A stretch of 64,000 bases of DNA from Polynucleobacter duraquae (GTDB lineage: Bacteria > Pseudomonadota > Gammaproteobacteria > Burkholderiales > Burkholderiaceae). The translations under genes and the position numbers were made by a program. Positions within the stretch are counted from its first letter, which is position 1. Every line of letters begins with the position of its first letter. Below are positions 36,756-39,251 of the stretch, one piece after another. Where the stretch lies: assembly GCF_000973625.1 (NCBI RefSeq), contig NZ_CP007501.1, positions 1,426,001-1,490,000 on the forward strand, given 5' to 3'. The notes under the pieces were generated by a model. It saw only the letters and a list, made by a program, of their open reading frames with translations, was not told the DNA's origin and did not search any database.

Positions 36756-39251
36756 TTAGAACGGCTCATACCCACCAGAGGAGTATCCAACTGATCCCAT
36801 CGCCAAGTTATCAAACTTGGTATACGGACCTTGCCAGCTTAAACGCACAGTACCAATTGGTCCGTTACGTTGCTTACCAATAATGATCTCCGCCATGCCT
36901 TTGTCTTGGGTTGTATCTGGGTGATATACCTCATCACGATAGATGAACATAATTAAGTCAGCGTCTTGCTCGATCGCGCCCGACTCACGCAAATCAGACA
37001 TGATTGGGCGCTTGTTAGGGCGCTGCTCAAGGCCACGGTTTAACTGTGACAAGGCAACTACTGGGCACTGCAACTCTTTTGCAAGTGATTTAAGGGAGCG
37101 CGAGATCTCAGAAATCTCTGTTGCACGGTTCTCAGAACCAGAGCCGCTCATCAACTGCAAGTAATCAATCACAACCAGGCCAAGTGTTCCGCCAAAGTTA
37201 CGCGCGATACGACGTGCGCGTGCACGCAACTCTAGACTGGAAAGAGCACCAGTCTCATCAATCAAAATTTGGGTATTACTCAAGCGGGCAATGGCATCAG
37301 TAACACGCGGCCACTCGTCATCTTGCAGCTTACCGGTACGCATACGACTTTGGTCCACGCGACCTACCGAACCTAATAAACGAGATGCCAATTGCTCACC
37401 GGACATCTCCATGGAGAACACGACGACGGGCAAGCCTTCGGCTAGAGCTACGTTCTCGGCGATATTGAGCGCAAATGCAGTATTGTGGGTCACCACATAA
37501 TCATTGGTTACATAGGTTCTATCTGGATGGCTAACTGAGATGCATTGAGCCTCAGTCACTCTAGATGGCTCAATACTTTTAAATGACACTCTGCGTTGGC
37601 GATCCCAGCTTGTTCTGAGTCTTTCCTTCTTTTCAGGCAAGGTAAATGCCTGGAAGCCAGGAGCAAAGCTCATATTCAAAACGTAAGCTAAACGACCCTG
37701 CTTCTTCTCGCCTTTGTAAGTGTAGCTTGACTGTTTTTGTGCAATTGAGCAAAAGCCGCCTAATGATCTAGCCAAAGAAGCTACATCTTCTGACAATTGC
37801 TTACTTGCAGTACAAAAACGAATGGAGCCCCACTTCTCAATCCAGCCATCGGTGTCCATCAAGCCCTGAAATAGCGCGAGACGGGAATTCTTGTTGGCTT
37901 CAAGATAGGTGGCGGGAATGTATTTATCAAAACTTCTACAACCCAAAACACCGAGATCTTGTAGAGCAGAGCGGAAATAATTTGTTGGCACAGACTGACG
38001 TTGGCCATTAGCAGCAATTCTAGCTTTAGAAACCAATCTCCAGTCATACGCGTTGGCATGAACCAGTTCCATCTCATAGCCAGCAAGAGCATTCATGCGC
38101 TCAATAAGCTCGGGAGACTTAGTCGAGAACATCACAGAACCGTGAGATAAAGCCAAAGTCCCATCACCGAGTAATGCACCCAAAACCCATGGGTTGATTG
38201 GTAATATATTTGAATGACCAAAATCACCTGAAACGGGATCTATCCACAGACGGTTCTTATATCGAACGCAAGAAAGCATTTCTATTAAACGTGCAGTATT
38301 AATGACTTTGGGCGCATCCCAATCGCGATACATGACGCGCCAAAGATGCTCATCGCAGCACTCAGCTTCACGACCATCTGAGAAAGTGACTCTGTAAATC
38401 TGTTTAATGCCTTGCGGATAGATGCCAGTCACCATGGAGTGCTGACCATCTACAGAGGCAAGGCGATCGCCAAAACGTAAATCGCCCATCAACTTCCAGC
38501 CATCAACCGTTTTTACTTTGGCATCCAGTGGTTGCGCTTTACCCATGGACGGTCTACCAGCAACAATCACTAAGTCGCCTTTTTGCAGACCACTAGTTTG
38601 CTTATCTAAATCAATAAATCCAGTTGCAATACCAGTGATGTCGCTACCACCTTGACGGTTATATAACTCATCAATACGCGCAACAACGGTTTTAAGTAGT
38701 GGTTCAATCTCGAGGTAATCGGCTTTACGACTACCCTCTTCACCAATTTGCAGAATGCGTGACTCTGCTTCATCTAAGAGCGTTCTGACAGAGCGACCCT
38801 CGGGAACAAATGCAGAGTTAACGATGTTGTCAGATACCTCAATTAGGCGACGCAAAATGCTGCGATCACGAACAATGTCGGCATAGCCTTTGATGTTCGC
38901 TGCACTGGGTGTGCTCTGCGCTAATGAATTGAGGTAATCAATACCAACTAAGTCACCACCCTGCTCAGACTTAACAGCCTCATGAACAGTAATGACATCA
39001 GCAGGATGATTGTCGCCAACTAAACGCTGAATGACCTTATAGATCAGAGCATGTTCAGGACGATAGAAATCTTTATCAGTTAACACCCCGCCCAGGCGAT
39101 CCCAGGCTGTGTTGTCGATCAGTAGACCGCCGAGCAAAGATTGCTCGGCTTCTACAGAATGCGGCGGTACTTTTAAAGCCTGCAGGGCTGGATCCCCAGA
39201 ACCCATCATGCCAGGATTTGACATAAGGGAGCGTGAGCGGGATTCAGCCAT
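36756..39251 (-). CDS. dnaB: Replicative DNA helicase DnaB with intein
   Basis: An 831-residue precursor. Extein residues 1-238 and 591-831 join to a normal DnaB of 479 residues: N-terminal domain starting PPHSVEAEQSLLGGLL, then the RecA-like ATPase with Walker A GRPSMGK/T reconstituted across the junction, VFSMEMSGEQL, LGLVVIDYLQLM (Walker B), ALSQLNRGLEQR and DLRESGAIEQDADLIMFIYR. The 352-residue insert (residues 239-590) is annotated separately. Without splicing the P-loop lacks its Thr and the helicase would be inactive, so splicing must be efficient for replication. The gene lies 24 bases after rplI in the rpsF-priB-rpsR-rplI-dnaB cluster. Confidence 0.97.
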   Translation of the reverse strand: MAESRSRSLMSNPGMMGSGDPALQALKVPPHSVEAEQSLLGGLLIDNTAWDRLGGVLTDKDFYRPEHALIYKVIQRLVGDNHPADVITVHEAVKSEQGGDLVGIDYLNSLAQSTPSAANIKGYADIVRDRSILRRLIEVSDNIVNSAFVPEGRSVRTLLDEAESRILQIGEEGSRKADYLEIEPLLKTVVARIDELYNRQGGSDITGIATGFIDLDKQTSGLQKGDLVIVAGRPSMGKAQPLDAKVKTVDGWKLMGDLRFGDRLASVDGQHSMVTGIYPQGIKQIYRVTFSDGREAECCDEHLWRVMYRDWDAPKVINTARLIEMLSCVRYKNRLWIDPVSGDFGHSNILPINPWVLGALLGDGTLALSHGSVMFSTKSPELIERMNALAGYEMELVHANAYDWRLVSKARIAANGQRQSVPTNYFRSALQDLGVLGCRSFDKYIPATYLEANKNSRLALFQGLMDTDGWIEKWGSIRFCTASKQLSEDVASLARSLGGFCSIAQKQSSYTYKGEKKQGRLAYVLNMSFAPGFQAFTLPEKKERLRTSWDRQRRVSFKSIEPSRVTEAQCISVSHPDRTYVTNDYVVTHNTAFALNIAENVALAEGLPVVVFSMEMSGEQLASRLLGSVGRVDQSRMRTGKLQDDEWPRVTDAIARLSNTQILIDETGALSSLELRARARRIARNFGGTLGLVVIDYLQLMSGSGSENRATEISEISRSLKSLAKELQCPVVALSQLNRGLEQRPNKRPIMSDLRESGAIEQDADLIMFIYRDEVYHPDTTQDKGMAEIIIGKQRNGPIGTVRLSWQGPYTKFDNLAMGSVGYSSGGYEPF
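37482..38537 (-). mobile_element. Class 3-type intein with LAGLIDADG homing endonuclease in the DnaB P-loop
   Basis: DnaB residues 239-590 (352 aa). It starts with Ala239 (KAQPLDAKVKT) and ends VVTHN590, followed by Thr591 of the extein. There is no Cys or Ser at position 1. Block B is GREAECCDEHLW, with His302 and Trp304 at B:12; block F has Cys570 (EAQC, F:4); block G is VVTHN with Thr588 at G:5, His589 and Asn590. Trp-Cys-Thr plus a Thr at +1 is the signature of class 3 inteins, where the block F Cys makes the first branched ester. The central part has two LAGLIDADG-like motifs, LGALLGDGTL (Asp363) and FQGLMDTDGW (Asp468), both with acidic catalytic residues intact, so the endonuclease may be active. 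Confidence 0.92.

Follow-up and report, generated by a model that had tools for sequence, protein, structure and literature searches.

The 64,000-nucleotide stretch of Polynucleobacter duraquae DNA analysed here (the window), enclosed in a single-contig genome of 2.03 Mb, carries in its helicase gene dnaB an element that we read, with a probability of about 0.9, as a mobile class 3 intein of full length, inserted in the P-loop of the only DnaB that the chromosome encodes, and from whose sequence we infer a splicing path and homing. The gene lies on the reverse strand (36756..39251) and encodes an 831-residue precursor, open throughout. Within it the intein, 352 residues from Ala1 to Asn352 (residues 239-590 of the open reading frame), takes up 37482..38537, between the N-extein (DnaB residues 1-238, ending in ...GRPSMGK; 38538..39251) and the C-extein, which starts with Thr+1 (TAFALN...) and includes the stop codon (36756..37481). 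The insertion point falls between Lys238 and Thr591, GRPSMGK/T, of the Walker A motif. This is where a preliminary description of the same DNA had placed a 352-residue intein, and its coordinates proved exact: the 64 intein-free dnaB alleles found in other genomes of the genus are continuous across the site, 63 of them reading GRPSMGKT and one (L139) GRPSMGKS.

The class of the intein and its endonuclease domain

The DnaB N-terminal (PF00772) and C-terminal (PF03796) domains lie on either side of the intein. The residues that the preliminary description had singled out as Ala239, Trp304, Cys570, Thr588 and Asn590 of the precursor are present as described and correspond to Ala1, Trp66, Cys332, Thr350 and Asn352 of the intein. 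Each of the following is invariant in the 69 aligned copies from the genus (all coordinates on the reverse strand): the non-nucleophilic first residue Ala1 (38535..38537); His64 (block B position 10, B:10) and Trp66 (B:12), which together with Leu65 are encoded by 38340..38348; Cys332 (F:4; 37542..37544); and the terminal Thr350 (G:5), His351 (G:6) and Asn352 (G:7; 37482..37490). The pair Cys60-Cys61 (38355..38360), of which Cys61 is B:7 of a CxxH motif, is likewise invariant, both in 69/69 genus copies and in all 46 rows of a further alignment. By analogy with class 3 inteins (PMC4031507, PMC5222942), Cys332 would be the first nucleophile, and the Walker A threonine, Thr+1 (37479..37481), would be the second.

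Class 3 inteins are defined by the lack of an N-terminal nucleophile together with Trp at B:12, Cys at F:4 and Thr at G:5 (PMC3196547). The intein begins with Ala1, has Trp66, Cys332 and Thr350 at these positions as well as His64, ends in His351-Asn352 and is followed by Thr+1. A tree was built from 44 selected rows, three of them class 1 inteins from the second DnaB site; the window's intein was placed with the class 3 rows, a long way from those three. The class 3 assignment of the preliminary description is borne out by this position and by the signature, invariant in 69/69 copies. So is its remark that the site differs from the SG/SIEQD site of the Synechocystis DnaB intein: the window's DnaB reads DLRESGAIEQD without interruption. 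An intein of the Synechocystis type (class 1, with Cys1) was considered and rejected given the P-loop site and Ala1.

Could the intein belong to class 1 or class 2 and have acquired Ala1 and the Cys at F:4 by accident? Class 2 inteins also begin with Ala, and some comparisons show closeness to class 1: the best sequence match in the PDB was gp41-1, with its engineered WCT form (6riz) ahead of 6qaz, and in a fold comparison class 1 inteins scored as high as class 3 inteins, so that the fold agrees with the assignment and does not separate the classes. Moreover, two inteins, L235 and L241, are nested within the sampled class 3 rows, L235 starting with Cys and L241 being without the Trp of B:12, so that class 3 is not one clade in the 44-row tree; its monophyly is claimed in the literature (PMC4031507, PMC3196547). 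However, class 2 inteins of the KlbA type have Ser at G:6 and Cys at +1 (PMC4031507), while the window intein has His351 and Thr+1, and class 2 was rejected on these residues. The Trp of B:12, the Cys of F:4 and the Thr of G:5 are all invariant, and class 1 inteins inserted at the other DnaB site occupy a distant branch of the tree. We therefore regard an accidental resemblance as very improbable. When the 23 bacterial rows (window, genus and other bacteria) were constrained to one clade, the approximately unbiased (AU) test did not reject the constraint (p 0.087); in the best tree L224 and L225, from another host protein, were placed elsewhere.

The two nested inteins come from a terminase of Lactococcus phage AM4 (L235) and from Staphylococcus phage Alsa_1 (L241), both being class 3 kin without Trp at B:12. 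L235 apparently starts with Cys, as class 1 inteins do, and L241 starts with Ala; they are possible intermediates or reversions between the classes.

A LAGLIDADG homing-endonuclease domain, which the preliminary description had not reported, spans approximately residues 115-292 (37662..38195, reverse strand). It was delimited by a PF14528 match at residues 219-270 (35.5 bits against a curated cut-off of 22.5) and by a match to PI-SceI at residues 116-290. Asp125 and Asp230, which we take to be the catalytic acids of the two LAGLIDADG motifs, are kept in 69/69 and 68/69 genus copies, respectively (the one exception having Asn). The structure model of the intein (predicted local distance difference test score, pLDDT, 89.8) was matched by PI-SceI along its full length. 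Thus, the intein appears to be full length with an intact-looking homing endonuclease.

A dead intein or an assembly error, with another gene supplying the DnaB function, is less probable still than a mistaken class, and we found nothing in support of it. The genome, in one contig, has one dnaB; the only other DnaB_C match, of 24.8 bits, lies in a separate 477-residue frame. The arrangement is identical in 70 genomes of the genus (this one included) and is under purifying selection: the ratio of nonsynonymous to synonymous divergence (pN/pS) was 0.121 for the intein, 0.131 for its endonuclease part, and 0.070 and 0.117 for the exteins. The genome has a single LAGLIDADG_3 match, the one in the dnaB intein. 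On the same strand, dnaB is preceded by genes for ribosomal protein S6, a single-strand-binding-type protein, S18 and L9.

Distribution and probable mobility of the intein

Relatives of the intein were detected in 76 of 186 genomes of the genus. In 70 of them (own genome included) the copy is full length with 75-100% identity, which does not agree with the word "rare" used in the preliminary description. The remaining matches are four at 41-43% identity (G020, G041, G147 and G161), a fragment at a contig edge (G149) and a terminase-like frame (G051). The C-extein was detected in 171/186 genus genomes (E-values up to 1e-60). The closest named relative is that of Polynucleobacter hallstattensis (97%; records of the own genome were possibly excluded). 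Matches were also found in 49 of 398 genomes of a family sample, 28 of these from Polynucleobacter, and in 30 of 399 genomes of an order sample, six from Polynucleobacter and several of the others weak or partial. Among phages 563 of 50,697 records matched, and among plasmids 39 of 72,556, all below 60% identity. Homologs in such numbers within the genus and in phage and plasmid records exclude a chance match.

The scan of genome contigs yielded 78 loci, with boundaries that could be placed in 77. It used six peptide patterns, one of them ECCDEHLW, which biases its block B counts. All 77 have the Cys of F:4 and the terminal THN. The insertion follows RPSMGK in 74 of them; L160 begins at a contig end, while L224 and L225 are located at GK/TT of another protein. 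A simple pattern test did not find the GDG of the first endonuclease motif in L191, L192, L221 and L222. One locus, L210, comes from a metagenome-assembled genome labelled Chitinophaga pinensis (Bacteroidota), and its junction residues resemble those of two DnaB inteins from Malikia (L209 and L211); its placement in Bacteroidota is probably a binning error.

Presence and absence of the intein were mapped on a quick tree of 136 extein rows (72 with the intein, 64 without) made from the helicase sequences only. The mapping required 39 changes, of which the starred branches force 19. With shuffled labels the mean was 45.4 changes, and 17 of 500 shuffles were as low as the observed value; the presence of the intein on the helicase tree is nearly, not wholly, random. 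Even near-sister alleles of dnaB differ in intein presence. Among 33 well-supported splits of the intein tree (67 genomes), 12 recur as supported splits of the extein tree and 15 conflict with one. Such a patchwork, the conflict between the trees and the endonuclease motifs kept in the close clade fit an invading, homing element.

A recent sweep through the whole genus was considered and rejected, because the synonymous divergence (pS) of the intein is not below that of the surrounding helicase (mean pS 0.683 for the intein against 0.548 and 0.631 for the exteins). Transfer on a smaller scale is suggested by L032, L034, L039 and L041: in the five pairs listed among them the pS of the intein was 0.09-0.15 compared to 0.38-0.48 for the exteins, which points to a recent transfer of the intein among these genomes.

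The four genus matches of low identity (L071-L074, in G161, G147, G041 and G020, respectively) form a divergent group with two DnaB inteins. Their P-loop intein has 335-343 residues and changed endonuclease motif positions, and it retains Ala1, His, Trp, Cys, Thr, His and Asn; the group shows that an intein whose endonuclease motifs have changed can still persist. The second, a class 1-type mini-intein of 140-144 residues (three measured), is located at DLRE/C...HN/SGAIEQD. Two inteins, in the P-loop and in the DNA-binding loop, are also described for Mycobacterium smegmatis DnaB (PMC6195587). Three kin of the divergent group (L254, L255 and L256, in G156, G144 and G053) have the second intein only, of 142 residues, and in three others (L248-L250, in G143, G164 and G123) neither site is occupied, so that zero, one or two inteins are all represented in the group.

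Related inteins were also seen in other proteins. The terminase-like frame of G051 (L075, contig 6; 974 residues), probably phage-derived, holds one at GK/ST in the P-loop; Ala1, Trp, Cys and THN are all present. On the conjugative IncC plasmid pKAZ5 an intein of class 3 type is found at GSGK/T of TraD (L237, gene traD), and plasmid records of Enterobacter, Citrobacter and Klebsiella contain a match equal to it in length and in identity (37.0%).

Proposed splicing and homing, and the readings weighed

In the path described for class 3 inteins, the Cys of F:4 attacks the N-terminal junction, the N-extein moves on to residue +1 and the Asn then cyclises (PMC4031507, PMC5222942); a Cys-His-Thr triad is reported for the Mycobacterium chimaera DnaB intein (PMC7664689). 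On this model Cys332, aided by His64 and Thr350, would attack the Lys238-Ala1 amide, the N-extein would be transferred to Thr+1, cyclisation of Asn352 would release the intein and an acyl shift would restore an unbroken GRPSMGKT Walker A motif. The LAGLIDADG domain would cleave dnaB alleles that lack the intein, at their Walker A codons, and repair would then copy the intein gene in. Since 352 residues separate the Lys and Thr of Walker A, DnaB is likely to be without ATPase activity before splicing; an inactive DnaBi1 precursor is likewise assumed for M. smegmatis, by analogy with RadA (PMC6195587). It is reasonable to infer that replication would be blocked if splicing were slowed, by analogy with mycobacterial DnaB, for which a pause of replication under slow splicing has been published (PMC6195587, PMC7360933).

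The difference between intein-bearing and empty alleles peaks in the first 12 nucleotides of the C-extein (37470..37481, reverse strand). For 67 intein-bearing and 64 empty alleles the mean fixation index (Fst) at positions +1 to +12 was 0.095, compared to a maximum of 0.019 in 100 label shuffles; the mean was 0.035 at +13 to +30, 0.025 at -30 to -1 and 0.008-0.014 in the other bins. Most of the 41 relatives listed from beyond the genus have other synonymous bases in place of T+3, A+6 and T+9, so that a target preference, if there is one, would be confined to the genus.

Long co-conversion tracts were not seen: the pS profile along the gene was alike for 67 intein-bearing and 52 empty rows, and mean Fst was near background past 30 nucleotides. 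The ratio of near (up to 120 nucleotides) to far divergence was somewhat higher for mixed pairs than for like pairs at a far divergence of 0.05-0.11 (for example, 1.83 for 108 mixed pairs versus 1.54 and 1.55 for 20 and 99 like pairs), an excess that vanishes above 0.11 and comes from pairs that are not independent. Short copied flanks around the intein are possible. The recognition site of a homing endonuclease is about 20 nucleotides long, and the length of the strip would suit such a site or short copied flanks; either reading requires homing.

Several points weigh against the reading of a spliced and homing class 3 intein. Class 1 inteins are among the top matches in both sequence and fold. 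The extein tree, being quick, has 45 of 133 inner branches open, and ordinary dnaB recombination could account for part of the patchwork. Synonymous divergence is close to saturation. Far from the insertion site, individual positions reach an Fst of 0.083. At least two of T+3, A+6 and T+9 occur in 42/67 intein-bearing and 8/64 empty alleles, these positions having been chosen after inspection of the data, and a phylogeny-corrected test on 14 independent pairs (6.3 for, 1.2 against, median p 0.125) was only suggestive; the twelve random far-position controls listed, some with repeated positions, gave a weaker excess or none (1.5-3.3 for, 0.9-2.8 against). Splicing and DNA cleavage themselves stand as deduced from sequence.

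Instead of being a homing element alone, the intein might be retained as a useful switch, with oxidation of Cys332 or metal binding to it stopping splicing and pausing DnaB and replication under stress. The precedent is the mycobacterial class 3 DnaB intein, where a Cys48-Cys118 disulfide and zinc on Cys118 are described (PMC6195587, PMC7360933). Support also comes from the invariant Cys60 and Cys61 and from the divergent L071-L074, which retain the P-loop intein despite changed endonuclease motif positions. In DnaBi1, however, with DxxH in block B, the oxidised partner of the catalytic Cys118 is the non-conserved Cys48 (PMC6195587), whose equivalent here, counted from the alignment bounds (profile 3-66 versus 3-67 of 6bs8), is Ile47 or Tyr48. 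Relatives live without the intein, as the 39 changes on the tree and the differing near-sister alleles indicate, and the endonuclease motif residues kept in the close clade fit homing better than a benefit to the host. On balance we consider a retained switch unlikely. Cys61 is expected near the splice site, and a Cys61-Cys332 disulfide switch is possible on the sequence. In the 18 phage and plasmid relatives fetched, B:7 is Cys in seven, Asp in five, Asn in three, and Ser, His and Gly in one each. A joint and bolder proposal, that an active class 3 homing endonuclease has the synonymous strip as its recognition footprint and that the Cys61-Cys332 disulfide is the CxxH branch's own redox brake on replication, is put forward as a doubtful one. 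If the strip were such a footprint, synonymous codon choice in the P-loop would determine whether a lineage is invaded or immune.

Inteins in essential helicases may be parasites or switches, a matter of debate. About four in ten genomes of the genus carry this intein in their helicase beside related empty genomes, which makes a natural population for tests of homing and of conditional splicing; the divergent group with two DnaB inteins, one of them with altered endonuclease motifs, adds to this test system. Public records list several of the carriers as named strains, and Polynucleobacter are free-living freshwater bacteria that are not known to be pathogens.

Comparison with known inteins

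The element is of a known kind, a class 3 DnaB P-loop intein, in a host group for which we found no description: a search of open-licence literature (titles and starts of abstracts; InBase was outside the search) gave no paper on a Polynucleobacter intein or on other Burkholderiales DnaB inteins. The DnaB inteins of Burkholderia, Paraburkholderia, Trinickia, Rhizobacter and Limnobacter share the site, the signature and the full length, mostly with about 48-56% identity (72% for Limnobacter).

Inteins in P-loop nucleoside triphosphatases of phages and plasmids (LucasX DnaB, DarB-like helicases, terminases and plasmid TraD) are 25-39% identical. Ten of the 18 fetched align from residue 1, immediately downstream of GK, and are followed by T or S; insertion at K/T is the classic P-loop case (PMC5050341). 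They differ from the Polynucleobacter intein in being mostly in other host proteins, in their lower identity and, for 11/18, in a residue other than Cys at B:7. PI-SceI, the yeast VMA intein, is a class 1 intein with another host protein and another target.

Described counterparts in mycobacteria are DnaBi1 of M. smegmatis (Msm DnaB-1; PDB 6bs8) and the M. leprae DnaB intein, which are P-loop class 3 inteins too. These are mini-inteins of 139 and 145 residues, with Ser at +1 and the flank FGVGK/STLGL (PMC5222942), and DnaBi1 is described as being without the endonuclease and as having DxxH in block B (PMC6195587). The Polynucleobacter intein, in contrast, has 352 residues, a LAGLIDADG domain, Thr at +1 and CxxH.
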